A stretch of 64,000 bases of DNA from Roseovarius amoyensis (GTDB lineage Bacteria > Pseudomonadota > Alphaproteobacteria > Rhodobacterales > Rhodobacteraceae). The notes beneath the pieces were generated by a model that had not been told where the DNA came from, searched no databases, and saw only the letters and a list, made by a program, of their open reading frames with translations. A program made the translations under genes and the position numbers. The DNA lies in assembly GCF_003260265.1 (NCBI RefSeq), contig NZ_QITQ01000007.1:1-64000 (forward strand), read 5' to 3'. Shown here piece by piece: positions 491 to 43,014 of this stretch (positions are counted from its first letter, which is position 1; the number at the start of each line of letters is the position of its first letter).

Positions 491-1657
491 TCACATACGT
501 TTCGCGACCTCTTCCAGCATGACCTCGCTGGCGCCGCCGCCAATGGCCTGCACGCGGGCGTCGCGCGACATCCGTTCAACAGGTGTTTCGCGCATATAGC
601 CCATGCCACCGTGGAACTGCACACAGTCATAAAGCACCGAATTCACCAGCTCGCCGCAATATGCCTTGACCATCGAGACCTCTTTTACGCAATCGTGGCC
701 CGCAGCATCCAGCCTTGCGGCATGATAGACAAGCTGGCGACCTGCCTCGATCCGGGTCTGGCAATCGGCGAGGCGCTGGCGGATCGCCTGTTTGTCCCAC
801 AAAACACCGCCAAAGGCCTTGCGCTGCTTGACATAGTCCAGGGTCATGTCCAGTGCAGTTTGCGCCTCGGCGCAGGCCATCGCACCCAGAACAATGCGCT
901 CGTTCTGGAAGTTCTTCATGACCGAGTAGAAGCCCTTGTTGACCTCGCCCAGTATGTTTTCCGCCGGGACGCGGACATCCTCGAAAATCAGTTCAGCGGT
1001 ATCCGAGCACAGCCAGCCGGTCTTGTTCAGCGCCCGACCGACCGAGAAGCCCGGCGTGCCCTTTTCGACCGTGAACATGGTGATCCCGCGCGAGCCCTTG
1101 GCATCGGGATTGGTCTTGGCGCCGACGAAATAGATATCGCCATGCACGCCGTTGGTGATGAACATCTTGGTGCCGTTCAGCACCCAGTCGGACCCGTCCT
1201 GCACGGCACGGGTGCGCATGCCGGCAACGTCCGATCCGGCACCCGGTTCGGTCACTGCAACGGCGGCTATCTTTTCGCCCGAGGTGATCGAGGGCATCCA
1301 GCGCGCCTTCTGTTCCGGGCTGCCCGCGTTTTCAAGGTGCGGCGAGGCCATGTCGGTATGCACCAGCACCGTGGCCGAGAAACCGCCAAAGGTGGACCGC
1401 CCGACCTCTTCGGCCAGAACCACGCTGGACATCACATCCAGCCCCGCGCCGCCATATTCCTCGTCATAGCGCATGCCCAGCACGCCCAGATCGCCCATAC
1501 GGCGCAGCACGTCGCGGGGCACCATGCCCTCCTCTTCCCATGCGTCGGCCTTGGCCGTCACCTCGGTTTCGATGAACCGGCGCAACTGGTCACGGATCAT
1601 GTCGAGGTCTTCGTTGAACGGCCCAGTGGCCGCGGCAGTGGTGTCCTGTCTGGTCAT
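491..1657 (-). CDS. Acyl-CoA dehydrogenase, AtuD-like
   Basis: A 388-residue FAD flavoprotein that would oxidise an acyl-CoA to its 2,3-enoyl-CoA in the cytoplasm. The start at 1657 (MTRQDTT) follows a GGAGG site (1665-1669) that lies in the last codons of the upstream carboxylase gene. The FAD/substrate segment VTEPGAGSD and the C-terminal QFHGGMGYMRETP are present. The position equivalent to MCAD Glu376 is Gly (AIGGGASEVML), while Glu253 in FQNERIV occupies the alternative base position used by isovaleryl- and citronellyl-CoA dehydrogenases. From memory the GGGA-x-E-x-ML ending is also found in Pseudomonas AtuD. It is the last gene of the TetR-carboxylase operon. Its substrate is probably branched, but this is inferred. 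Confidence 0.85.
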   Translation of the reverse strand: MTRQDTTAAATGPFNEDLDMIRDQLRRFIETEVTAKADAWEEEGMVPRDVLRRMGDLGVLGMRYDEEYGGAGLDVMSSVVLAEEVGRSTFGGFSATVLVHTDMASPHLENAGSPEQKARWMPSITSGEKIAAVAVTEPGAGSDVAGMRTRAVQDGSDWVLNGTKMFITNGVHGDIYFVGAKTNPDAKGSRGITMFTVEKGTPGFSVGRALNKTGWLCSDTAELIFEDVRVPAENILGEVNKGFYSVMKNFQNERIVLGAMACAEAQTALDMTLDYVKQRKAFGGVLWDKQAIRQRLADCQTRIEAGRQLVYHAARLDAAGHDCVKEVSMVKAYCGELVNSVLYDCVQFHGGMGYMRETPVERMSRDARVQAIGGGASEVMLEEVAKRM

Positions 1658-1659
1658 GT

Positions 1660-3657
1660 CTATTCCTCCGGGTCGAGTTTGACGAGTGGGGCGTGTCCGG
1701 CGACCGTATCGCCCGGAGCACAATAGATTTCCGTTACCACGCCCGCGACCGGCGCGGGCAGGCTTTGCAGCAGTTTCATGGCTTCCAGCACCACCAGCGT
1801 GTCCCCGGCGGCGACGGTATCGCCGGGGGCGACGCGCACCTCGGCAACGGCGCCCGGCATGGGGGCCGACAACAGGTCAGCGCCGCCAGATCCGCCGGCG
1901 GCCCGGGTAAGGTGTTGATCTTCCAGAGTGCACAGGTCCGTCACGATCATCCCGGCAGAGGTCTGCAAATGCACCCTCCAATGATTGCCGGCGCGCTCGA
2001 CATGCGCGATGCGCGAGAACGGAATGCCGTCGATACGTCCGCTCAGATGACCGCCGGTCAGGGCGGTGGTCTCGGCTGTGATGGTCTGACCGTCCGGCAG
2101 AACGGCGGCAAGCACTGCCGGGGCGCCGGATATGCGGATCGGTTCATCCTCGGATGTGGTCCAGTACGATGCCGTGCCGGGCCGTCCCGCAGGGGCGGTA
2201 AGCCGCCATGACCCAAGGCTTTCCCAAGGCGATGCGCCCGCCGGGGCGAGATGCAGATGGAGCACCATGGCGGCAAGGGCCATGTCGCCGGCGTCGGGCG
2301 TCGGTTGCGTCCAGCCATCGGGGAACATTTCAGGCAATCCCGAGGTGTGGTGCCGGAACGCCTGAAAGTCCGCATGCGTCAGCAGCGCCCGCTGATAGGA
2401 CAGGTTCAGGCCGACGCCACCAACGGCGAAGCCATCAATCGCGGCAACCGCCTGACGGATCGCCCCGGCCCGGTCCGGCGCATGGACGATCAGCTTTGCC
2501 AACATGGAATCGTAATGGTGGCCGACGACCGACCCCGCCGCGACGCCGCTATCCAGCCGCACGCCTGCTGGCGGTGCCCAAAGGGTTATCTGGCCGGTTT
2601 CGGGGCGGAAATTTTCCGCCGGGTTCTCGGCGGCGATGCGGATCTCGATGGCGTGTCCGTCGAACTGCACATCGGTTTGCGCGAACGACAGCGCCTCGCC
2701 CCGGCCAATGCGCAACTGCCATTCGACCAGGTCGATCCCGGTGATGGCCTCGGTCACGGGGTGTTCAACCTGCAGGCGGGTGTTCATTTCGAGAAAGTAG
2801 TATTCGCCGCGCGCCGGGTCGTAGAGGTATTCCACCGTCCCCAACGAGCGATAGCCGATGGATTGGGCCAGCCGTACCGCCGCCGACAGCATGTCATCGC
2901 GCATGGCGTCGGGCAGATCGGCGGCGGGGGCCTCTTCGATCAGCTTCTGGTGGTTGCGCTGGAGCGAACAGTCGCGGTCGCCCAGATGCAGCACGGTGCC
3001 GTGGGTGTCGCCCAGCACCTGCACCTCTACGTGACGGGCACGGGGTGCGTAGCGTTCAAGGAACACAGCAGGATCGCCGAACGCGCCCTGCGCCTCGGCG
3101 CGGGCGGATGCAATCGCCTCGGGCGCGTCGGCCAGATCGGTGACAAGGCGCATCCCGCGCCCGCCGCCACCGGCGCTGGCCTTGACCAGGAAAGGCGTGC
3201 CAAGCGTCCGTGCCTCGTCCAGCAGTCGGGCATCGGACTGATCTTCGCCACGATAGCCGGGCAAGACGGGTACGCCCGCGGCCTCGGCTGCGGCCTTGGC
3301 CTCGATTTTTGACCCCATCATTGCGATGGCGTCGGCCTCGGGCCCGATGAACACAAGGCCCGCCGCCTCGACCGCAGCGGCGAAACCGGCGTTTTCGGAC
3401 AGGAAACCATAGCCGGGATGCACCGCGCCGGCGCCGGTCGCGCGGGCGGCGTCCAGAATGGCGTCGATGTTGAGATAGCTTTCCGAGGGCGCGGCACCGC
3501 CGATGCAGACGGCGTGATCGGCCTCGGCCACAAAGGGCGCGTCGCGGTCGGCCTCGGAAAAGACCGCCACACTTTCCAGCCCCAGCTTGCGGCAACCGCG
3601 CTGGATACGCCGGGCGATTTCGCCACGGTTGGCGATCAGGACACGGGTGAAGCTCAT
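1660..3657 (-). CDS. Acyl-CoA carboxylase alpha subunit (biotin carboxylase + biotin carrier), MCC/GCC-like
   Basis: A 665-residue protein carrying biotin carboxylase and the biotinylated carrier domain. It would use ATP and bicarbonate to carboxylate biotin for the partner carboxyltransferase at 4459-6057. It begins with the biotin-carboxylase signature RVLIANRGEIARRI, has the glycine-rich ATP loop KASAGGGGRGM, the EMNTRLQVEHPVTE motif, and near the C-terminus the biotinylation site EAMKL. The start at 3657 is chosen because its ATG overlaps the stop of the upstream hydratase (ATGA), indicating translational coupling. Length and order match 3-methylcrotonyl- and geranyl-CoA carboxylase alpha subunits. 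Which enoyl-CoA it serves cannot be told from sequence alone. Confidence 0.9.
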   Translation of the reverse strand: MSFTRVLIANRGEIARRIQRGCRKLGLESVAVFSEADRDAPFVAEADHAVCIGGAAPSESYLNIDAILDAARATGAGAVHPGYGFLSENAGFAAAVEAAGLVFIGPEADAIAMMGSKIEAKAAAEAAGVPVLPGYRGEDQSDARLLDEARTLGTPFLVKASAGGGGRGMRLVTDLADAPEAIASARAEAQGAFGDPAVFLERYAPRARHVEVQVLGDTHGTVLHLGDRDCSLQRNHQKLIEEAPAADLPDAMRDDMLSAAVRLAQSIGYRSLGTVEYLYDPARGEYYFLEMNTRLQVEHPVTEAITGIDLVEWQLRIGRGEALSFAQTDVQFDGHAIEIRIAAENPAENFRPETGQITLWAPPAGVRLDSGVAAGSVVGHHYDSMLAKLIVHAPDRAGAIRQAVAAIDGFAVGGVGLNLSYQRALLTHADFQAFRHHTSGLPEMFPDGWTQPTPDAGDMALAAMVLHLHLAPAGASPWESLGSWRLTAPAGRPGTASYWTTSEDEPIRISGAPAVLAAVLPDGQTITAETTALTGGHLSGRIDGIPFSRIAHVERAGNHWRVHLQTSAGMIVTDLCTLEDQHLTRAAGGSGGADLLSAPMPGAVAEVRVAPGDTVAAGDTLVVLEAMKLLQSLPAPVAGVVTEIYCAPGDTVAGHAPLVKLDPEE

Positions 3658-4448
3658 TTCACCCGCCATGACGGAATGCTCTTGTTGAGGAAGCTGTTGA
3701 TGCCTTCGATGCCTTCCCTGGTTTCCCATGCGTCGGCCAGTCGGTCGGCGGTGTAGATCATGTTGGTTTCCAGATCATGGGCCGCCACATAGGCAATCAG
3801 CGCCTTGGTGTCGGCCACCGCGCCGGGCGCGGCCTGAAGGTGAGCGTGGACGACACGCTCGACCGCTTGGTCCAGTTCGTCCGAAGCGACGACCTCGGTC
3901 AAGAGACCGATCCGTTCAGCCCGTGCGCTGTCGAACAGCGCCCCCGACAGCATGGTTTCGCGCGAATGCACCTTGCCAATGCGGGCCACGACGTAAGGCG
4001 AGATATTGGCCGGTAACAGGCCCAGCTTCACCTCGGTCAGGCCAAAGCGGGACCCTTCGGCGCCAATCGTGTAGTCGCAGACCGATATCATGCCGACCCC
4101 CCCGCCATAGGCCGGGCCGTTGATCCGCCCGATCAGCGGCTTGGGCAGAGAATCGAGGCGCCGCAGCAAGTGCGCCAGAGTAGCGCTTTGTTCGACCCGT
4201 TCGGCGCGGGACTTGTCGACGTTGGAGGAGAACCAGTTGAAATCACCCCCTGCGCAAAAACTCTTGCCGTTGCCGGTCAGGACCACGATGCGCACTTTGT
4301 CATCGGCGGCCAGTTTTTCGGCCGCATCCGAAAGCTCGGCGATCAGCGTGCCGTTCAGGGCATTGTGTTTGTCCGGCCGGTTCAGGGTTACGGTGGCAAC
4401 ACCGCGCGCGTCGGTCTCGACCAGGATGGTTTCGTAAGTCGTCGTCAT
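3654..4448 (-). CDS. Enoyl-CoA hydratase, 3-methylglutaconyl-/isohexenylglutaconyl-CoA hydratase type
   Basis: A 264-residue crotonase-fold protein. The N-terminal VTLNRPDKHNALN, the oxyanion segment SFCAGGDF and the loop GLLPANISPYVVARIG are visible. The last is typical of the LiuC/AtuE branch that hydrates 3-methylglutaconyl-CoA or its isohexenyl analogue after gamma-carboxylation. One of the two classical hydratase glutamates is replaced (GGGVGM where enoyl-CoA hydratase has GGGCEL), whereas the second is kept (FGLTEVKLG). I recall the same replacement in LiuC proteins. The start at 4448 (MTTTYET) follows a modest GTGAGG site, 10 bases after the carboxyltransferase stop. Sitting between the beta and alpha carboxylase genes, it very likely acts directly on their product. 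Confidence 0.82.
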   Translation of the reverse strand: MTTTYETILVETDARGVATVTLNRPDKHNALNGTLIAELSDAAEKLAADDKVRIVVLTGNGKSFCAGGDFNWFSSNVDKSRAERVEQSATLAHLLRRLDSLPKPLIGRINGPAYGGGVGMISVCDYTIGAEGSRFGLTEVKLGLLPANISPYVVARIGKVHSRETMLSGALFDSARAERIGLLTEVVASDELDQAVERVVHAHLQAAPGAVADTKALIAYVAAHDLETNMIYTADRLADAWETREGIEGINSFLNKSIPSWRVK

Positions 4449-4458
4449 ATCTAGGGCC

Positions 4459-6057
4459 TCACATTCTGAATACGGGCGTGTGGCGCTCTGCCTCGGGCAC
4501 CGAAGAGACAATAGCCAGGCACAGGCCGAGAATATCTCGGGTCTGGCCGGGGTCGATCAGCCCGTCATCCCAGAGCCGCGAAGTGGCGTAATAGGGATCG
4601 GACTGTTCGCCGTACTGGGCGCGCACCTGCGCCTCGATCTGCGCCAGGTCGGCGTCCAGCCTGGCAGGCTCGCCGCCCTTCTGGCGGCGCAGTTCCAGCA
4701 TCACATTGGTGGCGATGTCGGCGGACATGGTGGCCAATTCTGCGGTTGGCCAGGCAAAGAGAAAATTCGGAGCGAAACCGCGCCCGCACATGCCATAGTT
4801 GCCCGCCCCGTAAGAGCCCCCCAGCAAAACCGACAGGCGCGGCACCTTGGCCACCGACATCGCATAGACCAGCTTGGCGCTGTCCTTGGCGATGCCGCCG
4901 CGCTCGGCTTCGGTGCCGACCATGAAGCCCGATATGTTGTGCAGGAACAAAAGCGGGATGTTCCTCTGATCGCACATCGAGACGAACTGCGCCCCCTTCA
5001 ACGAGCTGTCGGAAAGAAGCGCGCCGTTATTGGCCAGGACACCCACGCGATAGCCATGGATGCGTGCCGTACCGCAGACCAGCGTTTCGCCCCAGCCGGG
5101 CTTGAATTCGCGGAATTCGCCGGCGTCGATCATGCGCAGCAAAACCTCGCGCATGTCATATGGTTCCTTGCGGTCGGCGCTGATGACGCCAAGCAACTCG
5201 GACGGATCATGCGCGGGCGGCGCGGGGGCTGCGTCGGGCTGCATCGGGCGCGATTGGCCAAGCTCGGCCACGATGTCGCGCATCAGAGCGAGCGCATGGT
5301 ATTCGTCCTCGGCCAGGTGGTCGCATACACCGGAGACGCGCGCGTGCATTTCGGCGCCACCCAGCGTTTCGCCATCGACCTCTTCGTTGATAGCAACCTT
5401 GACGATCGAGGGTCCGCCCAGATGGATACGTGCGTTACCGCGCACCATGATGACCTCGTCCGACAGCGCGGGAATATAGGCCCCGCCCGCTGTGCAGCCG
5501 CCGAACACGGCTGATATCTGAGGCAACCCGCTGGCCGACATGTTGGTCTGGCGATAGAAGGAATTGCCGAAATGGCGGGCGTCGGGAAAGACCCGGTCCT
5601 GTTCCGGCAGATAGGCCCCGCCGCAATCCACCAGATACAAGCAGGGCAGCCGGTTTTCGGCCGCGATTTCCTGGGCGCGGATGTGTTTTTGCACCGTCTC
5701 GTGGTAGAAGGATCCACCCTTTACCGTGGCATCATTGGCGATCACCACACAGGGCAGCCCATGGACGATGCCGATGCCGGTCACGATCCCGGATCCAGGA
5801 ACCTCGCCCCCATATTGGCCATAAGCCGCGAGCGACGACAGTTCAAGAAACGAGGTGCCCGGGTCCACCAGCAGGTCGATCCGTTCGCGGACCAATAGCT
5901 TGCCGCGCTTGCGGTGGCGTTCAACCATATCGGGGCGTCCGCCCGACGTCGCCTCGGCAATCCGCGCGCGCAGGGTCTCGACGCGTTCGCTTTGCGCCGC
6001 GTGGTTGCGGGCGTAGGTCTCGGATGCGGTCAGTACCGCTGATTTAAGACGAGCCAT
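4459..6057 (-). CDS. Acyl-CoA carboxylase beta subunit (carboxyltransferase), MCC-like
   Basis: A 532-residue carboxyltransferase of the 3-methylcrotonyl-/geranyl-CoA carboxylase family; it moves carboxyl from carboxybiotin to the gamma carbon of an unsaturated acyl-CoA. Both crotonase-like halves are present: CTAGGAYIPALSDE in the N-half and GGSYGAGNYGMCGRGFAP in the C-half. Residue 163 is Phe (RHFGNSF), the bulky residue associated with MCC rather than geranyl-CoA carboxylase. That differs from the paralogue at 9864-11471. The gene starts three bases after the stop of the TetR gene and heads the set beta-hydratase-alpha-ACAD, the same content as liu operons. MCC itself or a related branched enoyl-CoA carboxylase are both possible. 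Confidence 0.88.
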   Translation of the reverse strand: MARLKSAVLTASETYARNHAAQSERVETLRARIAEATSGGRPDMVERHRKRGKLLVRERIDLLVDPGTSFLELSSLAAYGQYGGEVPGSGIVTGIGIVHGLPCVVIANDATVKGGSFYHETVQKHIRAQEIAAENRLPCLYLVDCGGAYLPEQDRVFPDARHFGNSFYRQTNMSASGLPQISAVFGGCTAGGAYIPALSDEVIMVRGNARIHLGGPSIVKVAINEEVDGETLGGAEMHARVSGVCDHLAEDEYHALALMRDIVAELGQSRPMQPDAAPAPPAHDPSELLGVISADRKEPYDMREVLLRMIDAGEFREFKPGWGETLVCGTARIHGYRVGVLANNGALLSDSSLKGAQFVSMCDQRNIPLLFLHNISGFMVGTEAERGGIAKDSAKLVYAMSVAKVPRLSVLLGGSYGAGNYGMCGRGFAPNFLFAWPTAELATMSADIATNVMLELRRQKGGEPARLDADLAQIEAQVRAQYGEQSDPYYATSRLWDDGLIDPGQTRDILGLCLAIVSSVPEAERHTPVFRM

Positions 6058-6060: not shown

Positions 6061-6690
6061 TCAGGTATCCTGTCTTTCAAGTATTCCGTCGAGAAACACA
6101 TCGGCATAGGTGCGCGACAGCGCCTCGACGCTGCCCCGGTCCGGATCGAACCAATCGAGCGTCGCGTTCAGCGCGCCGATCAACATCAGGCGCAGGCGGC
6201 GGATGTCCACGTCGCGCTTCAATGCGCCGTCGTCCTGAAGCCGGGACAACAGAGCGTCCCATTCGGCCTCATAAGCGCGGCGTGTGGGCAGGTTGGCATC
6301 TTTGACGGATTGCGGCACTTGCCCGAAAATACGCACATTGGCGGAGGTGTAATCGCTGACGTCAAGAAGCGCGCGCAGATGCGCCCCGATCGCGGCGCGC
6401 AAGGTCGCTTCGGGGCTGGTGCCTTCCGGCAACTCGGAAACCGCCTGGCGCATGCTCTCGTGAACGACTTGAATGCCGGCATCCAAGACGGCCGCAACGA
6501 TTTCGTCCTTGGAGCCGAAATGGTAATATATGCTGCCCGCCTTGATCCCTGCTGTCTCGGCGATTTTTCTCAGCGACACCGACCCATAGCCTTGTTCGCG
6601 AAAGAGCCGCGCCGCGACGTTCAGCACGCCGTCACGCCCGACCGCGTTGCGCCGCGCCTCGCTGACCTTTCCCGCCGTGTCATCCGCCAT
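6061..6690 (-). CDS. TetR-family transcriptional regulator
   Basis: A 209-residue repressor-type protein. The N-terminal helix-turn-helix is clear (SLRKIAETAGIKAGSIYYHF, about residues 39-58), followed by SKDEIVAAVLDAG. The ligand domain contains SDYTSANVRIFG, a motif repeated in both halves of the tandem TetR protein at 21208-22578, so they are close relatives. It is the first gene of the carboxylase operon; its own promoter carries the CTAAC-N4-GTTAG-type palindrome at 6718-6731, which suggests autoregulation. The ligand is probably an acyl-CoA intermediate, by analogy with other TetR regulators of fatty-acid and terpene catabolism. Start at 6690 has a weak AAGAGA site. Confidence 0.88.
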   Translation of the reverse strand: MADDTAGKVSEARRNAVGRDGVLNVAARLFREQGYGSVSLRKIAETAGIKAGSIYYHFGSKDEIVAAVLDAGIQVVHESMRQAVSELPEGTSPEATLRAAIGAHLRALLDVSDYTSANVRIFGQVPQSVKDANLPTRRAYEAEWDALLSRLQDDGALKRDVDIRRLRLMLIGALNATLDWFDPDRGSVEALSRTYADVFLDGILERQDT

Positions 6691-6717
6691 GGAATCTCTT
6701 TTCAGTATGCTGCCTAA

Positions 6718-6753
6718 CTAACACTTGGTAGGTGCATGGCGACAATGAGTCAA
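6718..6753 (-). promoter_or_regulatory. Promoter and palindromic operator of the TetR-carboxylase operon
   Basis: On the minus strand a -35 element TTGACT (6753-6748) and, 17 bases on, TACCAA (6730-6725) form a plausible sigma-70 promoter. The palindrome lies at 6718-6731 and reads CTAACACTTGGTAG on the plus strand, with one mismatch from CTAAC-N4-GTTAG. It covers the -10 element, where a bound TetR dimer would block transcription. Leader length to the ATG would be about 28 bases. Confidence 0.6.
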
Positions 6754-30954: not shown

Positions 30955-30994
30955 TTTGGGAAGGATATATTTTCGGTCATGGGGAGTAGCACCG

Positions 30995-35541: not shown

Positions 35542-37145
35542 CAAAACTCAAATCCTTGCTCGACACCGGGTCCGACGACTTCCGGGAAAACGAGACGTAT
35601 TACCGCAAGAAAATTGACGAACTGCACGCCCTTCGCCTGCAGCAACGTGTCGGCGGGCCAGAAAAGGCACGGGATCGGCACGTATCGAAATGCAAGATCC
35701 TGCCGCGCGAACGGGTCGAACGGCTGATTGACCCGGGCACGCCCTTTCTGGAACTCGGCGAACTGGCGGGGCTGAACAAATATGACGGTGTTCCCCCCGG
35801 CGCGGGCATCATCACCGGCATCGGCGTGATCGAGGGCCGTCAGTGCATGATCATTGCCAATGATGCCACTGTGAAGGGCGGCACCTATTTCGGCATGACC
35901 TCGCGCAAGCACGTGCGCGCCCAGAAAGTCGCCTGGAAGAACCGCCTTCCGGTGATCACGCTGGTCGATTCCGGCGGCGCGTTTCTGCCGGATCAGGAGA
36001 ACATCTTTCCCGACGAAGGCCAGTTCGGTTCGATCTTTCACCAGCAGGTCGGCATGTCGGGTGACGGCGTGCCGCAGATCGCTGTGGTCATGGGCCCCTG
36101 CACCGCAGGCGGCGCCTATATTCCCGCGCTTTGCGACGAGGTGGTGATCGTGCGCGGTCAGGGCTTTATGTATCTGGGTGGACCGGAACTGACCTTTGCG
36201 GCCACAGGTGAAAAGGTCGATGCCGAGTCGCTGGGCGGCGGCAAGATGCATTCGTCCGTGTCCGGCGTGACCGACCATCTGGCCGAGGATGACGCGCACG
36301 CCCTGGCCATCACCCGCGATATCGTCAGCCATCTGGGCGAAAAGCCCCTGCCCCGCAAGACACCCACCACGCCACGCGCGCCTGCCTACCCGATCGAGGA
36401 AATCTACGGCATCGTCAGCCGCGACCCCAAGGTGCCGACCGACAACCGCGAGATCATAGCGCGTCTGGTGGACGACAGTGATTTTCACGAATTCAAACCG
36501 CTTTATGGCGACACCATCATGACTGGTTGGGGCCGCATTCACGGCCACGAAGTCGGCATTCTCGCCAATACCGGTGTGCTTTTCGTCGAGGCCGCGTTGA
36601 AGGCCACCCATTTCATCAATCTCTGCGTCCAGCGCGATATACCGTTGCTGTTCCTCGCGGATGTAAATGGCTTCATGGTCGGCCGCGAGGTCGAGCAGAT
36701 GGGCATCGCCAAGGCGGGCGCCAAGATGATCACCGCCATGTCCTCGGCCCGGGTGCCAAAGTTCACGATCATCACCGGCGGGTCCTACGGGGCGGGTTAT
36801 CTGGCGATGCTGGGCCGCCCGTTCCAGCCGGACGCGACGTTCGCCTGGCCCACGGGCCGGGCCGCCATCATGGGGCCCGAGCAGGCCGCCAGCGTTCTGG
36901 CCCAGGTCCGCGCCCAGATCAACGAGCGCGATGGCAATAGCTGGACGCCCGAAGAGGAAGAGGCCTTCAAGGCCCCGATCCGCAAGGAATACGAGGATTT
37001 CCAGGGCGCTTACAATTTCGCTGCGAACCTCTGGATCGACAGCGTGATCGAGCCTTGTGAAACCCGCGAGGTCATGGCGCTGATGCTGGATGTGGCTTCG
37101 CGCAGACCCAAGGTCGAAACCAATTTCGGCGTGTTCAGGATGTGA
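35538..37145 (+). CDS. Acyl-CoA carboxylase beta subunit (third copy)
   Basis: A 535-residue carboxyltransferase with CTAGGAYIPALCDE and GGSYGAGYLAMLGRPFQPD. Residue 163 is Phe (GQFGSIF) as in methylcrotonyl-type enzymes. The second-half block GAGYLAMLGRPFQP differs from the GAGNYGMCGRA/G of the other two copies here and of MCC/GCC, so the acyl pocket is distinct. This is the most divergent of the three and may carboxylate another kind of acyl-CoA. It is coupled to the CoA ligase upstream and followed after 10 bases by its alpha subunit. Confidence 0.87.
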   Translation: MTKLKSLLDTGSDDFRENETYYRKKIDELHALRLQQRVGGPEKARDRHVSKCKILPRERVERLIDPGTPFLELGELAGLNKYDGVPPGAGIITGIGVIEGRQCMIIANDATVKGGTYFGMTSRKHVRAQKVAWKNRLPVITLVDSGGAFLPDQENIFPDEGQFGSIFHQQVGMSGDGVPQIAVVMGPCTAGGAYIPALCDEVVIVRGQGFMYLGGPELTFAATGEKVDAESLGGGKMHSSVSGVTDHLAEDDAHALAITRDIVSHLGEKPLPRKTPTTPRAPAYPIEEIYGIVSRDPKVPTDNREIIARLVDDSDFHEFKPLYGDTIMTGWGRIHGHEVGILANTGVLFVEAALKATHFINLCVQRDIPLLFLADVNGFMVGREVEQMGIAKAGAKMITAMSSARVPKFTIITGGSYGAGYLAMLGRPFQPDATFAWPTGRAAIMGPEQAASVLAQVRAQINERDGNSWTPEEEEAFKAPIRKEYEDFQGAYNFAANLWIDSVIEPCETREVMALMLDVASRRPKVETNFGVFRM

Positions 37146-37155
37146 GGAGCGAATC

Positions 37156-39162
37156 ATGAAAATCAAAACGCTTCTTATCGCCAATCGCGGCGAAATTGCC
37201 TGTCGGATCGCGCGTACCGCGCGGGCCAGCGGCATCACCCCTGTCGGTGTGCATTCCGAAGCCGACGCCAATGCCCTTCATGTCCGCGAGATCGGAAAAT
37301 CCGTCTGTATCGGTGCCGGGCCGGCATCCGAAAGCTATCTAAAGATCGACGCGGTGATCGACGCTGCGCAGTCGGTCGGCGCGGATGCAATCCATCCCGG
37401 CTATGGCTTTCTGGCCGAAAACTCCGAATTCGCCCGTGCGGTCGAGGCCGCCGGCATGGTCTTTATGGGGCCGACGGCGGAAACGCTTGAACGTTTCGGC
37501 GACAAGGCCAGCGCCAAAGAGGCCGCCGTGGCCGCCGGCGTGCCGGTTATCTCGGGCGCGGAAGGCGCGCGATCCGACCCGAAAGAGATTGCCGCCGAAG
37601 TGCGCGAGATGGGCCTGCCCGTCCTGCTCAAGGCGGTCGGCGGTGGCGGCGGTCGCGGCCAGCGGCTCGTGACCGACGAGACCACGCTTGAGGAAGACAT
37701 CGAAGGCGCGCTGCGCGAGGCAAAATCCACGTTCGGCTCCGAAGGGTTGCTGCTGGAGCGTTTCCTGCCCGAGGCGCGCCATGTCGAAGTGCAGATCGCC
37801 GGCGACGGCAAGGGGCATGTGGTGCACCTGTTCGAACGCGACTGCACGCTTCAGCGCCGCCACCAGAAGGTCATCGAAGAGGCCCCGGCCTGGGGCCTGC
37901 CCCGCACGCTGCTGGACAAGGTCGCGCAGGACGCGGTGCGCCTGGGCGAAACGCTCGACTATCGCGGCCTGGGCACGGTGGAGTTCCTGGTCGCGGGCGA
38001 CGAGTACTTCTTTCTTGAGGTGAACCCCCGCATTCAGGTGGAGCACCCCGTCACCGAGGCGATCACCGGGCTGGATCTGGTTGCACTTCACCTGCGCATT
38101 GCCGAAGGCGCGGGCCTTGGCCTGGTGCAGGATGATTTGGCGATCAACGGCCACGCGGTCGAGGCGCGGCTTTACGCCGAAGACCCGGCGATGCAGTTCG
38201 CCCCCTCGACGGGCACTCTGACCACACTCAGCCTGCCCGAGGGTCTGCGCATCGACAGCGGTGTCGAAGAGGGCGACGCGGTCACACCCTTCTATGACCC
38301 CATGATCGCCAAGCTGGTCGTTCACGCAGCCGACCGGGAAACCGCGTTGGCGCGGCTGGCGACGGCCCTGGACCATGTCGCGGTGGAGGGCGTGCAAACC
38401 AACCGCGCCTTTCTGACGGCGCTGGCCCGCAACCCCGAATTCGAGCGGATGCAGGTTCATACGCGCTGGATCGACGGCAGGCTCGACGAGCTGACGCAGG
38501 CCTGCGTCCTGTCCCGCCCCGAGTTGTGGAAGGCCGCGGCCGCCATTCTTTTTGTGGCAACGTCACGCCGCGATGCAGATGCCGATCCCTGGACCAACCG
38601 TGACACCTTTACCGGCTGGCGGCTTGGCCTGGGCGGCGATGCGATCGAGGCGGGGCAGCGTGTGACGCTCACGGATGCCGCCGGCGCATCCGAAGAACTG
38701 CGCGTCGGACCGATCAAAGCCGGGGCCAGATACACTGTCCTGTCGGAAAACGGCGATGCGGCGACACTGGCAATGCGTGAAATCACGCCGGGCCGCTGGC
38801 GTGTGAGCGAGGGCGATACAGTCCATCTGATCGACGCACGGTTGCACGCCGGCGTGATCGAGCTGGACACGCCCGAAGGGCGCCTTGTCTTCCGCCCGGC
38901 CGCGCCTCTGGACTTTGCAGGCGGCGATGTTGCGGGGGATCGCGCCGTGGCCTCACCGCTGACCGGAATGATCGTCGAGATCAAGGTGACCGACGGTCAG
39001 CCCGTGGCCGAAGGAGACGTGGTGGCGGTCATGGAATCCATGAAACTCGAAATCTCGATCCGCGCTACCGCAGCCGGAACCGCCAGCAACATATCCGTCT
39101 CGAATGGGGACATGGTCGATCGGGGCCAGGTCATCGCCGAGATACTGCCATCCGAGGAGTGA
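37156..39162 (+). CDS. Acyl-CoA carboxylase alpha subunit (third copy), biotin carboxylase + carrier
   Basis: A 668-residue fused subunit: KTLLIANRGEIACRIARTA, ATP loop KAVGGGGGRGQ, EVNPRIQVEHPVTEAI (Val-Asn-Pro instead of Met-Asn-Thr), and the C-terminal biotinylation site MESMKLEIS. GAGG stands before the ATG at 37156. Partner is the carboxyltransferase at 35538. With two other sets in the window, the island has three complete biotin-dependent carboxylases. Confidence 0.9.
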   Translation: MKIKTLLIANRGEIACRIARTARASGITPVGVHSEADANALHVREIGKSVCIGAGPASESYLKIDAVIDAAQSVGADAIHPGYGFLAENSEFARAVEAAGMVFMGPTAETLERFGDKASAKEAAVAAGVPVISGAEGARSDPKEIAAEVREMGLPVLLKAVGGGGGRGQRLVTDETTLEEDIEGALREAKSTFGSEGLLLERFLPEARHVEVQIAGDGKGHVVHLFERDCTLQRRHQKVIEEAPAWGLPRTLLDKVAQDAVRLGETLDYRGLGTVEFLVAGDEYFFLEVNPRIQVEHPVTEAITGLDLVALHLRIAEGAGLGLVQDDLAINGHAVEARLYAEDPAMQFAPSTGTLTTLSLPEGLRIDSGVEEGDAVTPFYDPMIAKLVVHAADRETALARLATALDHVAVEGVQTNRAFLTALARNPEFERMQVHTRWIDGRLDELTQACVLSRPELWKAAAAILFVATSRRDADADPWTNRDTFTGWRLGLGGDAIEAGQRVTLTDAAGASEELRVGPIKAGARYTVLSENGDAATLAMREITPGRWRVSEGDTVHLIDARLHAGVIELDTPEGRLVFRPAAPLDFAGGDVAGDRAVASPLTGMIVEIKVTDGQPVAEGDVVAVMESMKLEISIRATAAGTASNISVSNGDMVDRGQVIAEILPSEE

Positions 39163-39166
39163 TGAG

Positions 39167-40126
39167 ATGAGCGACTTTCCAAAATTCGTCGAGTTTCGTG
39201 AAGAAGGTCCGCGCGAGGGTTTTCAGATCGAAAAGAAGATCTATCCGATCGAACAGCGGATCGAGCTGATCGACATGCTCAGTGAAACCGGCTTGAAACG
39301 CATTCAGGTGGGCAGTTTTGTCAGCCAGCAATACGTGCCGCAAATGGCCGACACCGGCGAGCTGTTTCAGCGCATCAAGCGCAAGCCCGGCGTGAACTAC
39401 ACGTCGCTCTGGTTGAACGACAAGGGTTTTCGCAAGGCCCTGACCGCGCACGAGGTCGATATCGACCCGCGTCTGCTGTTCTACCCGTCCGAGGCGTTCG
39501 CGCAATCGAACAACAATTGCTCCTCTGCCGAAATGCGCGAGAGGCAACGCGACTGGGTTCGGCTTTACAAGGAAGAAGGCTATACGGTCGACGCCGCCTA
39601 TGTGATGACGGCCTTTGGCTGCAACTTCGAAGGCGCGATCCCGCAAGAACGCATCCTGGACGATTTCCGCTTTATCCTGCAGCTTTGCGAGGAAGAGCAG
39701 ATCCCCGTTCCGATCCTCGTGATCGCCGATACAATGGGTTGGGGTAACCCGGAAACGGTCAAGCGGATGATCGGCGCGCTGCGCGAGATGGCGCCGGATG
39801 CGCGCATCGGCATGCACATCCATGACACGCGCGGGCTTGGCATCGCCAATGTCCATGCCGCCCTGTCGATGGGGGTAGACATGTTCGAAAGCTCTGTCGC
39901 GGGTCTTGGCGGGTGTCCTTTCGCGGGTCACGGCCATGCGCGCGCCGCCGGCAATGTCTGTACCGAGGACGCGGTTTTCCTGTGCCATGAACTTGGTATT
40001 GAAACCGGAATTGATCTGGACAAGCTGGTCGCTGCTGCGGTTAAAGCGGAAGAGATCATTGGTGCACAGCTGATGGGTCGGGTCATGCACACGGGCGGAC
40101 TGGACAAATATCGCAAAACAATCTGA
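39167..40126 (+). CDS. HMG-CoA lyase-like enzyme with altered catalytic motif
   Basis: A 319-residue TIM-barrel metal-dependent lyase. The HMG-CoA lyase features SSVAGLGGCPFA (catalytic Cys) and HIHDTRGLG (metal His pair) are present, but the N-terminal motif that should read GPRDGLQ is GPREGFQ: the metal/catalytic Asp is Glu17. The loop after the Cys motif is GHGHARAAGN rather than the usual short PGASGN type. The expected reaction is retro-aldol release of acetyl-CoA (or acetate) from a 3-hydroxy-3-alkylglutaryl-CoA, matching the neighbouring carboxylase and hydratase. The changes suggest a substrate other than HMG-CoA. ATG at 39167 follows GAGGAG just after the carboxylase stop. Confidence 0.82.
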   Translation: MSDFPKFVEFREEGPREGFQIEKKIYPIEQRIELIDMLSETGLKRIQVGSFVSQQYVPQMADTGELFQRIKRKPGVNYTSLWLNDKGFRKALTAHEVDIDPRLLFYPSEAFAQSNNNCSSAEMRERQRDWVRLYKEEGYTVDAAYVMTAFGCNFEGAIPQERILDDFRFILQLCEEEQIPVPILVIADTMGWGNPETVKRMIGALREMAPDARIGMHIHDTRGLGIANVHAALSMGVDMFESSVAGLGGCPFAGHGHARAAGNVCTEDAVFLCHELGIETGIDLDKLVAAAVKAEEIIGAQLMGRVMHTGGLDKYRKTI

Positions 40127-40138
40127 GGAGGAATGAAC

Positions 40139-41053
40139 ATGTCAAAAGCACTTGATGGAAAAGTAATTCTGGTCACCGGAGCGGGTGGCGGGATCGGGCG
40201 CGATATCGCTCTGATGGCCGCGTCCGAAGGCGCCGCCGTGGTGGTCAACGATCTGGGCGCGTCGCTGAAAGGCACCGGCCAGACCGAAACCGCGGCGCAA
40301 AAGGTGGTTGAGGAAATCAAGGCCGCTGGCGGCGATGCGATTGCCGATGGTGGCAACGTCACCGATCCCGACGCCGCGCGCGCGATGATCGAGGCCGGTG
40401 TCAAGGAATTCGGCCGCATCGACGCGGTGGTGAACAACGCCGGTATCCTGCGCGACGGTTTCTTTCACAAGATGAGTTATGAGGATTTCGACGCGGTGGT
40501 GAAGGTCCACCTTTATGGCGCCTTCAACACCAGCCGCGCCGCCGCCGACTATTTCCGCGAACAAGAAAGCGGCGCGCTGGTGCACATGACCTCGACCTCG
40601 GGGCTGATCGGCAACTTTGCCCAGGCGAACTATTCCGCCGCAAAGCTGGGCATCGCCGCCTTTTCGAAATCGGTCGCGCTCGACCTTAAACGCTGGAACG
40701 TCCGTTCCAACTGCATCGCGCCTTTCGCCTGGAGCCGGATGATCTCGTCGATCAAGACCGACACGCCAGAACAGAAGGCACGGGTCGAGAAACTCAAGCA
40801 GATGACACCCGCCAAGGTGGCACCAATGGCCTGTTTTCTGATGTCTGACCGGGCTGAGGGCGTCAGCGGGCAGATCTTTGGCGTGCGCAACAATGAGATC
40901 TTTCTGTTCAACCAGCCCCGCCCGGTGCGCTCCGTTCATTCCGGCGAGGGCTGGACCGCAGATGAAATCGCCGAGCGCGCCATTCCCGCGCTCAAGTCGC
41001 AATTCACTCCACTCGAAGTTTCGGCGGACGTCTTTTCGTGGGATCCGGTCTAA
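40139..41053 (+). CDS. (3R)-hydroxyacyl-CoA dehydrogenase-like SDR (MFE-2 type)
   Basis: A 304-residue SDR resembling the dehydrogenase domain of peroxisomal multifunctional enzyme 2: TGAGGGIGRDIAL, VVVNDLGA, NNAGILRDGFFHKM, and ANYSAAKLGIAAFS with the catalytic Tyr and Lys; the serine is in TSTSGLIG. A C-terminal extension (SVHSGEGWTADEIAERAIP) is also typical. It should oxidise a 3-hydroxyacyl-CoA with NAD. The second ATG (40139) is favoured because GGAGG is seven bases before it. Its stop is joined to the next start (TAATG). Confidence 0.85.
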   Translation: MSKALDGKVILVTGAGGGIGRDIALMAASEGAAVVVNDLGASLKGTGQTETAAQKVVEEIKAAGGDAIADGGNVTDPDAARAMIEAGVKEFGRIDAVVNNAGILRDGFFHKMSYEDFDAVVKVHLYGAFNTSRAAADYFREQESGALVHMTSTSGLIGNFAQANYSAAKLGIAAFSKSVALDLKRWNVRSNCIAPFAWSRMISSIKTDTPEQKARVEKLKQMTPAKVAPMACFLMSDRAEGVSGQIFGVRNNEIFLFNQPRPVRSVHSGEGWTADEIAERAIPALKSQFTPLEVSADVFSWDPV

Positions 41054-41847
41054 TGGGCAAACGCAAGGAAAAAATCAGCTCGAACATCGGTTGGAGCACC
41101 CCCGACAAAATCTGTGTGCGCGGGCTGGACCTGCCGAACGAGGTGCTCGGCAAGATGAACCTTGGCGACTTCGCCTTTCTGCAGCTGACCGGACGCCCGG
41201 CCACGCCAGAGGAAAGCCGCGTCTTCAACGCCATCATCATCACCCTGGTCGAACATGGCATCACGCCTTCGGCCCTGGCCGCGCGGATGACCTATATGGG
41301 CGCGCCGGAATCGCTTCAGGCGGCCGTCGCGGCCGGGCTGTGCGGGCTGGGCACGGTGTTTGTCGGCTCGATGGAAGGCGCATCGAAGATGCTTTACGAG
41401 GCGCTGCCACAGGACAAGCTGGGCAGCGGCGCCGACCTGGACGCCATCGCATTGGAAACGGTCGAGAAATTCCGCGCCAAAAAGGCCATCGTGCCCGGCC
41501 TGGGCCATCCGGTGCACAAGCCGGTTGACCCGCGCGCCCCGCGCCTGTTCGCGATCGCGGCCGAAAATGGCAAGTCAGGGGAATACATCGAGCTGATCCA
41601 GAAGATTCAGGCCGTCGCCGAAGAGAAGTCGGGCAAGATGCTGCCGATCAACGCCACCGGCGCCATTGGCGCGATCTGCTGCGAATTCGGCTTTCCGTGG
41701 AAGATCGTCCGTGGTTTCGGCGTGATGGCACGCGCCATCGGGCTGGTCGGTCATATCCTTGAGGAAAGCGAAAACCCGATCTCTTATGAACTGTGGCAGC
41801 GCGCCGAAGAGGAGATCCTCGAAACTTCGGGCCCCGGAGCGAACTGA
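41053..41847 (+). CDS. Citryl-CoA lyase-like protein (citrate-synthase superfamily, stand-alone)
   Basis: A 264-residue protein homologous to the citryl-CoA lyase module of ATP-citrate lyase and to the citrate synthase C-domain. FVGSMEGASKML corresponds to the GALDAAAKMF region of ATP-citrate lyase, GLGHPVHKPVDPRAPRL to its GIGHRV block, and FPWKIVRGFGVMARAIGLVGHI to the C-terminal CoA region. The first catalytic His of citrate synthase is absent, as in citryl-CoA lyases. Citryl-CoA is a 3-hydroxy-3-carboxyglutaryl-CoA, so an enzyme of this fold could cleave a related branched 3-hydroxy diacid thioester of this pathway; that is inference. Coupled to the SDR by TAATG. No citrate-activating subunit is nearby. 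Confidence 0.8.
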   Translation: MGKRKEKISSNIGWSTPDKICVRGLDLPNEVLGKMNLGDFAFLQLTGRPATPEESRVFNAIIITLVEHGITPSALAARMTYMGAPESLQAAVAAGLCGLGTVFVGSMEGASKMLYEALPQDKLGSGADLDAIALETVEKFRAKKAIVPGLGHPVHKPVDPRAPRLFAIAAENGKSGEYIELIQKIQAVAEEKSGKMLPINATGAIGAICCEFGFPWKIVRGFGVMARAIGLVGHILEESENPISYELWQRAEEEILETSGPGAN

Positions 41848-41850
41848 GCG

Positions 41851-43014
41851 ATGCAAACCTCGGCACCTGACACCCATAACGATCTGCGCGACGCGCTGCG
41901 CGCGCTCTGCGCGCAGTTCCCGCCGGAATACCATCGCAAGTACGGCGAGGACGGAGCCTATCCCGAGGAATTCGTCGATGCGCTGACCCGCGAAGGCTGG
42001 CTGGCAGCAATGATCCCCGAGGAATACGGCGGCTCGGGCCTTGGCCTGACCGAAGCCTCGATCATCATGGAAGAGGCGAACCGTTGTGGTGCCAATGCCG
42101 GTCACTTTCACGGACAAATGTACAACATGGGCACGCTTCTGCGGCACGGCTCGGACGAGCAAAAGCAGAAATACCTGCCCGGCATCGCCAGCGGCGAGTT
42201 GCGCCTGCAATCCATGGCCGTGACCGAACCGACGACCGGGACGGACACCACCAAGCTCAAGACCACGGCGGTCAGAAAAGGCGACCGCTATGTGATCAAC
42301 GGTCAGAAGGTCTGGATCAGCCGTATCCAGCATTCTGACCTTATGATCCTGCTGGCGCGCACCACGCCGCTGAAAGAGGTCAAGAAGAAATCTCAGGGCC
42401 TGTCGGTCTTCATGGTCGATCTGAAAGAGGCAATCGGCAATGGGATGGAGGTCCGCCCCATCGCCAACATGCCCGGCCACGAGACCAACGAAGTGTTCTT
42501 TGACAGCCTCGAAATCCCTGCCGAAAACCTGATCGGCACCGAGGGGCGCGGCTTTTATCATATCCTTGACGGCCTGAACGCAGAGCGGACCCTGATTGCG
42601 GCGGAATGTATCGGCGACGGCTATTGGTTCGTGGACAAGGCCCGCGCCTATGCCGGCGAGCGCATTGTCTTCGACCGTCCCATCGGGCAGAACCAGGGCG
42701 TGCAGTTTCCCATCGCAAAGGCATTCGTGAATGTGGAGGCCGCTAACCTGATGCGCTTTGAGGCCTGCAAACGCTATGATGCGGGGCAGGATTGCGGGGC
42801 GCAGGCGAATATGGCCAAGCTTCTCGCCTCCGAGGCCAGTTGGGAAGCGGCGAATGCCTGTATCCAGACCCATGGCGGCTTTGGCTTCGCGCGCGAATAC
42901 GATGTCGAGCGCAAGTTCCGCGAGTCCCGCCTGTATCAGGTGGCACCGATCTCGACCAACCTGATCCTGTCCTATGTCGGCGAACACATCCTGGGTATGC
43001 CGCGTTCGTTCTGA
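41851..43014 (+). CDS. Acyl-CoA dehydrogenase (APIS type)
   Basis: A 387-residue FAD enzyme, paralogue of the one at 32962: VTEPTTGTDTTKLK, IQTHGGFGFAREYDVERKFRE, base loop replaced by QVAPISTNL, alternative Glu in LNAERTLI, and C-terminus GEHILGMPRSF. GGAG precedes the ATG at a longish 11 bases. Last gene of the plus operon. Having two APxx-type dehydrogenases plus one Asp-type in one operon implies at least three different desaturation steps or a broad substrate range. Confidence 0.85.
   Translation: MQTSAPDTHNDLRDALRALCAQFPPEYHRKYGEDGAYPEEFVDALTREGWLAAMIPEEYGGSGLGLTEASIIMEEANRCGANAGHFHGQMYNMGTLLRHGSDEQKQKYLPGIASGELRLQSMAVTEPTTGTDTTKLKTTAVRKGDRYVINGQKVWISRIQHSDLMILLARTTPLKEVKKKSQGLSVFMVDLKEAIGNGMEVRPIANMPGHETNEVFFDSLEIPAENLIGTEGRGFYHILDGLNAERTLIAAECIGDGYWFVDKARAYAGERIVFDRPIGQNQGVQFPIAKAFVNVEAANLMRFEACKRYDAGQDCGAQANMAKLLASEASWEAANACIQTHGGFGFAREYDVERKFRESRLYQVAPISTNLILSYVGEHILGMPRSF

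Follow-up and report, generated by a model that had tools for sequence, protein, structure and literature searches.

Three gamma-carboxylases in a horizontally spread catabolic block of Roseovarius amoyensis, the proposed core of a regulon for methyl-branched carboxylic acids

The window, i.e. the whole stretch of 64,000 nucleotides of Roseovarius amoyensis DNA analysed here, opens at a contig end (contig C77, base 1), and the left border of the island it contains is therefore given as assembled. Pfam and NCBIfam scans of positions 491–43014 confirmed the observed gene set and bore out the enzyme inventory claimed in the initial annotation: two CoA ligases (ACS/acetoacetate-ligase-like, 23545–25482, and PaaK-like, 34141–35541), six acyl-CoA dehydrogenases, four crotonases, one SCP2-type thiolase, three carboxylases, AtuA, one HMG-CoA-lyase-like (HMGL-like) and one citryl-CoA-lyase-like protein, three SDRs plus one NmrA-like protein, and a thioesterase-like set of three 4HBT proteins and one PaaY-like hexapeptide protein. 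A fourth SDR (22670–23431) comes from its translation and from annotation in relatives, outside the profile scan. Absent from the earlier inventory were an OYE-like flavoenzyme (28866), a TetR_C_24 regulator (6061), a double TetR (21208–22578), an AraC-like protein and a flavodoxin-like protein. GC3-based gene picking gave antisense ORFs at several places, and family matches took precedence. ORF 9045–9461 on the minus strand was rejected as antisense to the PaaY-like gene, as was the N-terminal extension of a longer double-TetR ORF (to 23007), which is antisense into SDR4. The features are as follows.

6–293, plus: IS256-type transposase, C-terminal part, at the contig end, forming the island's left border in this assembly (ORF; family recognised by eye)
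491–1723, minus: ACAD1, AtuD-like acyl-CoA dehydrogenase (a start at ATG 1657 matches the gene length in R. indicus)
1660–3729, minus: BCa1, carboxylase 1 alpha subunit (biotin carboxylase and biotinyl domain)
3654–4511, minus: ECH1, crotonase (PRK07468 above cut-off)
4459–6057, minus: CTb1, carboxylase 1 beta subunit, gamma-carboxylase lineage, MCC-type insertion and Phe
6061–6690, minus: TetR1 regulator (TetR_C_24)
6872–7702, minus: SDR1
7727–8944, minus: SCP2-type thiolase (a start at ATG 8911 matches the gene length in R. indicus)
9198–9809, plus: PaaY-like hexapeptide protein (ORF 8901–9809; GTG at 9198)
9864–11471, minus: CTb2, carboxylase 2 beta subunit, MCC-type insertion, GCC-type Gly
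11475–11990, minus: BCCP2, separate biotin carrier, starting after the BT-hook motif
11978–13447, minus: BC2, separate biotin carboxylase, ending just past GGWRN
13460–15259, minus: AtuA, proposed acetate lyase with the predicted citramalate-lyase fold
15281–16171, minus: ECH2, crotonase (ORF coordinates; ECH domain from residue 50)
16201–17418, plus: ACAD2, IVD-like
17427–18632, plus: ACAD3, IVD-like
18643–19497, plus: SDR2
19481–20293, plus: ECH3, crotonase
20306–20788, plus: 4HBT thioesterase
20785–21189, plus: 4HBT thioesterase
21208–22578, minus: double TetR regulator, 456 aa
22670–23431, plus: SDR4
23545–25482, plus: ACS, acetate/acetoacetate-CoA-ligase-like enzyme
25479–26333, plus: NmrA-like NAD(P)-binding protein
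26302–27051, plus: AraC-like regulator (HTH_18)
27061–27516, plus: 4HBT thioesterase
27623–28210, minus: flavodoxin/FMN-reductase-like protein
28866–30944, minus: OYE-like flavoenzyme (ATG at 30899); orthologues annotated 2,4-dienoyl-CoA reductase
30926–32176, plus: ACAD4, cyclohexanecarboxyl-CoA-dehydrogenase-like, below that cut-off (ATG at 30995)
32173–32952, plus: ECH4, crotonase
32962–34122, plus: ACAD5
34141–35541, plus: PaaK-like CoA ligase
35538–37145, plus: CTb3, carboxylase 3 beta subunit, MCC-type insertion and Phe
37090–39162, plus: BCa3, carboxylase 3 alpha subunit
39104–40126, plus: HMGL-like protein, PREG replacing PRDG (ATG at 39167)
40133–41053, plus: SDR3 (PRK07791-like, below cut-off)
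41038–41847, plus: citryl-CoA-lyase-like protein, without the Asp of NVDGAI (ATG at 41053)
41851–43014, plus: ACAD6, last island gene in the window

The second-best match of ECH1 is gamma-carboxygeranoyl-CoA hydratase, below cut-off. ACAD4 and the OYE-like enzyme could equally indicate an alicyclic acid, a point to the contrary of the reading we develop below. Five of the six dehydrogenases have the IVD-type catalytic Glu and are without the usual one, which fits several beta-branched steps. The thiolase scores 457 bits against SCP2-thiolase type 1 over residues 12–403, and a co-regulated cluster outside the window encodes an MFE-2 hydratase domain and the CoA-transferase III family. Together with the IVD/AtuD-type dehydrogenases, these predicted families point to acids with alpha and beta branches.

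With the three beta subunits as queries, chains named MCC scored 479–606 bits, chains named GCC 419–431 and chains named PCC at most 289, save 9tps (573–595 bits). According to excerpts of Jurado 2015 (PMC4673880), a GCC beta subunit has an active-site Gly and is without a 3-residue insertion, an MCC beta subunit has a Phe plus that insertion, and the pocket Phe of MCC excludes geranyl-CoA. The pocket motifs found here are HFG in CTb1, QFG in CTb3 and LGG in CTb2. None of the three has the AtuCF combination, since CTb2 has the Gly but keeps the insertion, and CTb1 and CTb3 have Phe and insertion, i.e. the LiuBD combination that CTb2 lacks. Against the reading developed below, the Phe of CTb1 and CTb3 suits small substrates, not long chains of the isoprenoid kind. 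In the beta-subunit tree, which has no characterised MCC among its rows, the CTb2 clade (9 rows, 100/100) is sister to an 18-row clade that contains Pseudomonas AtuC (94/91) and is not nested in it; the pair formed by the genome's own sequence from contig C33 and L066 (99/98) includes neither CTb1 nor CTb3, and the deep forks among the lines are not resolved. The alpha subunit of carboxylase 2 is split inside its BT domain into BC2 and BCCP2. A separate liuB-type gene is present in this genome (contig C33), as it is in each of the 10 island genomes tested. Simple copies of liu and atu were rejected, since tree, pocket residues and separate liuB-type gene argue against them; all three carboxylases belong to the gamma-carboxylase (MCC/GCC) lineage while grouping with neither Liu MCC nor AtuCF.

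The predicted AtuA model (pLDDT 90.6) matched citramalate lyase in Foldseek (chain A, E 2.4e-21; chain B, E 0.0046). Aligned to CmlAB (PDB 9evf/9erq), it covers 490 alignment columns with chain A and 105 residues with chain B (TM-score 0.72 by target) at 17–18% identity; by sequence alone the match is weak (E 0.031). CmlAB has two chains, A and B, whereas the island AtuA is one chain; the solved CmlAB complex contains ADP and pyruvate. Both enzymes are expected to free acetate from a tertiary hydroxy acid. Because of this predicted fold, we propose that AtuA may be an acetate-releasing lyase. In the literature (PMC4097962, PMC4847356), the acetate-lyase step is assigned to LiuE in one paper and to AtuA in another.

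Two further lyase homologues carry conserved catalytic-site substitutions. The HMGL-like protein passes the NCBIfam PRK05692 cut-off (265.1 against 246 bits) and has PREG in 9 of 9 island copies compared, whereas the genome's own LiuE on contig C33 keeps PRDG. The Asp of PRDG has a metal-site role in HMG-CoA lyase. The citryl-CoA-lyase-like protein passes the PRK06224.1-5 cut-off (350.4 against 193 bits) and reads NATGAI in 9 of 9 island copies compared; the reference motifs are NVDGAI (6hxp) and, in ATP-citrate lyase, NVDGTI, the Asp of which is catalytic in citryl-CoA lyase. Each protein has lost a catalytic acid, which counts against the reading developed below.

A dyad, TCTAAC-N4-GTTAGA, lies at the unit promoters of the block and recurs at most of the matching promoters in relatives. 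The sites are given without strand.

6717–6732: degenerate operator upstream of the TetR1/carboxylase 1 operon (weaker site, looser scan only)
8966–8981: operator, one mismatch, SCP2-thiolase/SDR1 promoter
9044–9059: operator, two mismatches, between thiolase and PaaY-like gene
16143–16158: operator, one mismatch, between the AtuA/carboxylase 2 unit and the ACAD2 unit
22588–22603: operator, perfect, divergent double TetR/SDR4
30937–30952: operator, perfect, divergent OYE/ACAD4 unit

Searched as TCTAACNNNNGTTAGA, the dyad has seven matches in the window at two or fewer mismatches against 0.24 expected, and none of 100 shuffles reached seven, so that the single operator proposed in the initial annotation is right in substance. 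Four of the seven are intergenic and two intragenic (13408 in BC2, 41080 in the citryl-CoA-lyase-like gene). The match at 16143 falls within the 5' end of the listed ECH2 ORF and, because it precedes the ECH domain, is probably upstream of the true ECH2 start. The TetR1-operon site is conserved as ACTAACnnnnGTTAGG in G016, G220, G263 and G305, and was not found in G015, a genome without TetR1. Some copies of the block are without weaker dyads: L036 and L040 lack one of the two thiolase/PaaY sites, and L041 lacks both. The TetR proteins are candidate regulators of the dyad, the link being one of position.

Across the whole genome, 22 dyads at two or fewer mismatches were counted, below a reversed-pattern control (117); outside the window, therefore, only sites at 0–1 mismatch were interpreted. 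Perfect copies number six, against about 0.05 expected from base composition (0.03–0.08 for GC 0.66–0.60), and all six stand at catabolic units, in the block and in two more clusters (transport; alpha-branched beta-oxidation). Thus, the window holds only part of the pathway: the initial annotation was right to take 491–43014 as one regulatory unit, but the unit extends past those positions into the two further clusters.

Among 294 other sampled genomes of the family, seven have all three carboxylases together, at 92–98% identity, and CTb1, CTb2 and CTb3 at 90% or more pick out these same seven. In this respect the initial annotation is supported: the carboxylases are co-inherited, appear all to be gamma-carboxylases, and come in addition to the separate liuB-type gene. 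The island is accessory within Roseovarius and occurs on plasmids, several of them conjugative, of other Roseobacteraceae and Roseibium; Roseovarius indicus DSM 26383 has a plasmid-borne copy, and in Phaeobacter sp. G2 an annotated IS256 transposase adjoins the island. The block is horizontally spread and, judging from these comparisons, inherited as a whole. In G248 a third module seemed to be placed independently, about 93 kb apart. This was rejected as a contig-end effect, because the contig starts at ACAD3 and ends at AtuA; its ends share no exact overlap of 16 bases or more, and circularity is not proven.

On balance, and with some reserve, we read the block as the central part of a single regulon that has spread horizontally and serves methyl-branched carboxylic acids of the isoprenoid type. 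The acid would enter through Liv-type ABC transporters and be activated by the operon-borne CoA ligases. Alpha-methyl positions would be handled by the CoA-transferase III proteins (one possibly a racemase), the MFE-2-type hydratase, an SDR and the SCP2-type thiolase, and beta-alkyl positions by the cassettes of the window. There, an IVD/AtuD-type dehydrogenase would yield a 3-alkyl-2-enoyl-CoA, a biotin carboxylase would add CO2 to its gamma carbon, a crotonase would then add water, and a lyase would cleave the resulting 3-hydroxy-3-alkylglutaryl-CoA. In the CTb2 unit, AtuA would free acetate, with a 3-oxoacyl-CoA remaining, on the pattern of the Atu pathway. CTb2 may serve bulky beta-substituents and CTb1 and CTb3 small ones; in the third cassette, the altered HMGL-like and citryl-CoA-lyase-like proteins would take part. 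Against this reading, no terpene alcohol or aldehyde oxidation genes were recognised in the block. The initial annotation had suggested three branches removed in turn. This is not established, and three successive long-chain isoprenoid carboxylations are too simple a scheme, because CTb1 and CTb3 have a small, MCC-type pocket and only that of CTb2 is open. More tentatively, and we would not yet count on it, the regulon (marine, often plasmid-borne, about 75–85 kb where most complete) might mineralise an isoprenoid acid with alpha- and beta-methyl branches, e.g. a terpenoid of phytoplankton or oil origin, either cyclised or tail-to-tail, using three non-orthologous gamma-carboxylases including a new split-alpha subtype, an AtuA acetate lyase and a third cassette with new C–C cleaving chemistry by the HMGL-like and citryl-CoA-lyase-like proteins.

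We wondered whether the substrate might instead be a ring-derived acid with alkyl branches, of the p-menthane or cyclohexanecarboxylate type, activated, dehydrogenated by an AliB-like ACAD4, opened by hydration, oxidation and hydrolysis, and relieved of its beta branch by carboxylation. ACAD4 is far closer to the AliB family TIGR03207 (525.1 bits) than to any other (240 bits) but stays under its curated cut-off (575.35). The OYE-like enzyme and PaaK-like ligase would suit such a route. The limonene pathway proposed for Castellaniella, in the excerpted text of PMC4109377, has ring cleavage of the cyclohexene-carboxyl-CoA type and a 2,4-dienoyl reductase, but the word carboxylase is absent from its main text. 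For none of the four crotonases do the 25 top NCBIfam matches include a ring-cleaving family above its cut-off, the alternative type of oxepin-CoA hydrolase reaching 141–167 bits against 300. We regard a ring acid as unlikely, though deserving of attention.

The block could also hold independent pathways on one mobile element, i.e. a Liu-like, an Atu-like and a third acid unit with different substrates under a general branched-acyl-CoA sensor. At the thresholds applied, single units do have relatives that lack the other units: the CTb1 type in G120 and G090 (from gene context) and in G271 (match only), and the CTb2 type in records of Solimonas, Variovorax, Nevskia, Xanthobacteraceae and Pseudooceanicola, with matches in G274, G293 and G340. 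The dyad stands beside the CTb1 unit in G120 and G090, is absent from the 4.4 kb examined of G271, and is absent from the scanned CTb2 relatives save for one two-mismatch match in L043. Against this, the same dyad is found at each unit of the block and at the majority of the corresponding promoters in relatives, and all seven other genomes that have CTb2 at 90% or more keep the three carboxylases together; linkage alone could explain part of this joint retention. Separate pathways seem improbable to us. Sterol or bile-acid side-chain and ring degradation, suggested by a regulon with SCP2-type thiolases, an OB-fold/thiolase pair, neighbouring dehydrogenases, MFE-2 hydratase and CoA-transferase III, a set which resembles steroid side-chain gene sets, is very hard to credit, and its KshA-type form was rejected: KshA_C (PF19298) was found in 0 of 8 island genomes, in a search without a strong positive control (14 named controls gave one weak match, none over cut-off), and we know of no place for gamma-carboxylases in the known 9,10-seco route.

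The methyl-branched-acid regulon we favour shares parts with known systems. With the Atu pathway of Pseudomonas (atuABCDEFGH) it has in common AtuA, an AtuD-like dehydrogenase, a gamma-carboxylase, a crotonase and an adjacent TetR-type regulator; however, the island beta subunits lie outside the AtuC clade, CTb2 has the MCC insertion and a split alpha subunit, two further carboxylases and an SCP2-type thiolase stand under the one dyad, and the gene order differs from atuA-B-C-D-E-F with its two-subunit carboxylase. With the Liu pathway it shares IVD-like dehydrogenases, the MCC-type insertion and Phe of CTb1 and CTb3, and an HMGL-like protein, but the liuB-type gene is separate, the island enzymes fall in other clades, and the HMGL-like protein has PREG, not PRDG. 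The animal SCP2-thiolase (SCPx)/peroxisomal branched-chain beta-oxidation system also has an SCP2-type thiolase, an MFE-2 hydratase domain and the CoA-transferase III family, whereas the island is bacterial, operon-borne and combined with gamma-carboxylases. A search of the open-access literature found no described pathway with the whole gene set, in keeping with what the initial annotation had stated.

The island is a large catabolic package exchanged among marine Roseobacteraceae and Roseibium, with conjugative plasmids among its carriers, and its substrate, once identified, could reveal an overlooked marine carbon source. Testable questions for enzymology arise as well, on the split-alpha gamma-carboxylase, on AtuA in its putative role of a citramalate-lyase-like acetate lyase, and on lyase homologues with changed catalytic acids. 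Listed sources of island carriers include Emiliania huxleyi, Alexandrium, Symbiodiniaceae and diatom material. The flanks of four plasmids were examined in part; on one of them an alkane-hydroxylase cluster, itself without the dyad, lies close to the block, which counts against the favoured reading. In its favour, a BioY biotin transporter adjoins the block on three annotated plasmids.

The block spans 491-43014, and family scans bore out the gene inventory given in the initial annotation. The right border is abrupt: from 43500, where the 3' end of rpoD lies, the sequence resembles the 5.4-Mb main contig (C1) of the congener G016, with no similarity to that contig found in 42501-43499; similarity to genome G006 begins at 43491. 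In the window genome, the block adjoins rpoD. On the left, the border is the contig end, next to a partial IS256-type transposase.

The single operator proposed initially was recovered as an operator-like dyad, TCTAAC-N4-GTTAGA, that marks units across the block. With up to two mismatches, seven matches lie in the window against 0.24 expected, and none of 100 shuffles got to seven. Two of them, at 13408 and 41080, are intragenic and probably due to chance. The other five, together with a weaker site at 6718 seen only in a looser scan, cover all of the following positions:

Dyad site at the TetR1/carboxylase 1 unit
Dyad site at the thiolase unit
Dyad site at the PaaY-like gene
Dyad site between the AtuA/carboxylase 2 unit and the ACAD2 (acyl-CoA dehydrogenase) unit, overlapping the provisional ORF of the crotonase ECH2 at its 5' end
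Dyad site at the double TetR/SDR4 pair
Dyad site between the units of the OYE-like flavoenzyme and carboxylase 3

Six perfect dyads were found genome-wide (two in the window, two on contig C33 and one each on C1 and C39), about 0.05 per genome being expected from base composition alone. Because the genome-wide count at up to two mismatches (22) falls below that of a reversed-pattern control (117), sites outside the window were used only at 0-1 mismatch. No match was seen in the examined stretches of the genome's Liu locus and C66 cluster, and no perfect dyad in 1.385 Mb of comparison loci L042-L115. Dyads were found again at most corresponding promoters in G006, G015, G016, G220, G248, G263, G305, G103 and the named records. 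In the stretches scanned, G015, a genome without TetR1, lacks the TetR1 site; of the two thiolase/PaaY sites, L036 and L040 each lack one and L041 lacks both. The dyad is also present in L159 (G120:C80) and L160 (G090:C2), partial relatives having the carboxylase 1 unit only; a third relative, L146 (G271), has none in the short stretch examined. Since L159 and L160 carry it, the dyad and the carboxylase 1 unit may have come first, the other units having been recruited later. The double TetR (21208-22578) has tandem TetR_C_24 domains in a single chain and may recognise two operators, or two ligands.

The four perfect dyads outside the window mark more CoA-thioester genes. Families among the 10 proteins scanned in the C33 cluster include two adjacent acyl-CoA dehydrogenases, a MaoC-like protein, an MFE-2-type hydratase, CoA-transferases III, a thiolase, a crotonase and a transglutaminase-core protein (G000:C33:237919-238695, L191), the last kept among the regulon's CoA-thioester genes. 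Also present are an OB-fold-like protein, so annotated in Phaeobacter, and a 400-residue protein without a Pfam match, whose Phaeobacter counterpart by position is annotated as a phenylacetate--CoA ligase family protein. The C1/C39 cluster, identified by eye and by orthology to G305, comprises an SDR, Liv-type ABC transporter genes, an in-operon CoA ligase, a CoA-transferase and a dehydrogenase split over two contigs. This one regulon dehydrogenase (C1:178-1419 and C39:9741-10022) appears to be broken; the end of C1 bears a transposase-like ORF. In G305, both outside clusters and a third, D3, share a contig with the block. On the plasmid of Phaeobacter sp. G2, too, C, D3, D2 and part of D1 are joined. 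The examined stretches of the window genome hold no D3 orthologue above 50%.

The three carboxylase beta subunits (CTb1-3) scored 479-606 bits against chains named 3-methylcrotonyl-CoA carboxylase (MCC), 419-431 against geranyl-CoA carboxylase (GCC) and at most 289 against propionyl-CoA carboxylase (PCC), except for the 9tps set, which is named propionyl-CoA carboxylase beta and stands apart from the other PCC-named chains at 573-595 bits. AccD1 of 4q0g scored 532-628 bits. Jurado et al. (PMC4673880) give a pocket rule (insertion, Phe/Gly), under which CTb1 and CTb3 combine the MCC insertion with Phe, and CTb2 has the insertion but Gly; the genome's separate liuB-type protein on C33 is MCC-type and its C66 carboxylase GCC-type. 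In a 36-row tree, which does not resolve the deepest forks, all three are separate from the C33 protein: CTb1 in a clade with L036, L041, G120 and G090 (100/100), CTb2 in a nine-row clade (100/100) sister to one containing AtuC (94/91), and CTb3 alone. The alpha subunit of carboxylase 2 consists of two proteins: BC2 stops right after GGWRN, a match to the BT-domain hook motif, and the start of BCCP2 aligns to the remainder of that domain. BC ends at the same motif in L059 (Nevskiaceae, GGWRN) and L046 (Variovorax, GAWRN). We know of no such split in a described gamma-carboxylase, and carboxylase 2 is a new-looking carboxylase subtype. BioY adjoins carboxylase 1 in R. indicus, Phaeobacter sp. 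G2, Roseibium and, by eye, G220.

Among the dehydrogenases, ACAD2 (43%) and ACAD3 (41%) resemble the genome's own IVD-like protein, and ACAD1 resembles AtuD-position proteins (38-40%). ACAD1, 2, 3, 5 and 6 have a Glu at what we take to be the IVD-type position and none at what we take to be the usual one. The block thiolase has its best match in SCP2-thiolase type 1. The HMGL-like and citryl-CoA-lyase-like proteins score above their family cut-offs, yet in nine of nine copies compared PREG replaces PRDG in the former and NATGAI replaces NVDGAI in the latter, so that their reactions are not to be taken from the family.

The predicted AtuA model (29 sequences, pLDDT 90.6) matched citramalate lyase chain A in Foldseek (E 2.4e-21, the sole match below 0.001) and chain B at E 0.0046 with probability 1.00, the latter presumably through the C-terminal AtuA_ferredoxin domain. 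Citramalate lyase splits a tertiary hydroxy acid with release of acetate. The Atu step likewise gives off acetate, as described in passages of PMC4097962, which assign it to LiuE, and of PMC4847356, which assign it to AtuA. Because the predicted fold is that of citramalate lyase, the model favours AtuA over LiuE, without proving it. A different Atu-like cluster of the same genome (G000:C66:7223-34237; L032, L033) has a second AtuA (58%), a GCC-type carboxylase, an SCP2-like thiolase and an OYE-like enzyme (52%), with no dyad in the 80 kb examined.

Under the one dyad lie tools for alpha branches (SCP2-thiolase, MFE-2 hydratase, CoA-transferase III) and for beta branches (IVD/AtuD-type dehydrogenases, gamma-carboxylases, AtuA), and these two sets together suggest, from sequence, acids methyl-branched at alpha and beta positions, as in many isoprenoids. 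A ring-derived acid is also conceivable in view of ACAD4, the OYE-like enzyme and the small CTb1 and CTb3 pockets. The novelty is of known enzyme kinds in a new combination; in agreement with the initial annotation, no described pathway with this exact gene set was found in the open-licence PMC literature.

The island is real, mobile and catabolic, and apparently co-regulated. Across 295 genomes of the family, which represent 294 genera and include that of the window, orthologues of CTb1, CTb2 and CTb3 at 90% or more all occur in the same seven other genomes; this co-occurrence is due in part to physical linkage. Additional matches under the search threshold are a partial CTb3 in G190 (93% over 420 residues, 3.3-kb contig), three CTb2-like proteins (63-66%) and three CTb1-like proteins (66-82%). 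AtuA was found at 90% in 3 of 35 congeners. The island carboxyltransferases of the seven other genera are 92-98% identical to the window's, against 75-87% for the separate liuB-type gene, present in all 10 island genomes tested, and 62-72% for dnaG in the same 10 (59-72% in all 13 searched); horizontal movement of the block follows. The block lies on a 450,820-base contig in G016, and matches in a plasmid collection number 101 records for the left 25 kb (14 with coverage of 80% or more; some perhaps to the insertion sequence only) and 69 for the right-hand 14 kb (35 with such coverage). It is on the conjugative plasmid pRIdsm_01 of Roseovarius indicus (NZ_CP031599.1), on a 3.1-Mb contig in G263 and beside rpoD here, and is therefore not confined to plasmids.

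On the Phaeobacter sp. G2 plasmid (CP104101.1; L209 826-14386), a cluster without the dyad encodes an alkane 1-monooxygenase, rubredoxin, aldehyde dehydrogenase and fatty-acid oxidation proteins, with insertion sequences between it and the island. An AMP-binding CoA ligase absent from the window copy stands beside the OYE-like gene at G220:C5:83504-84985, L210 2412-3950 and L211 1178-2713.
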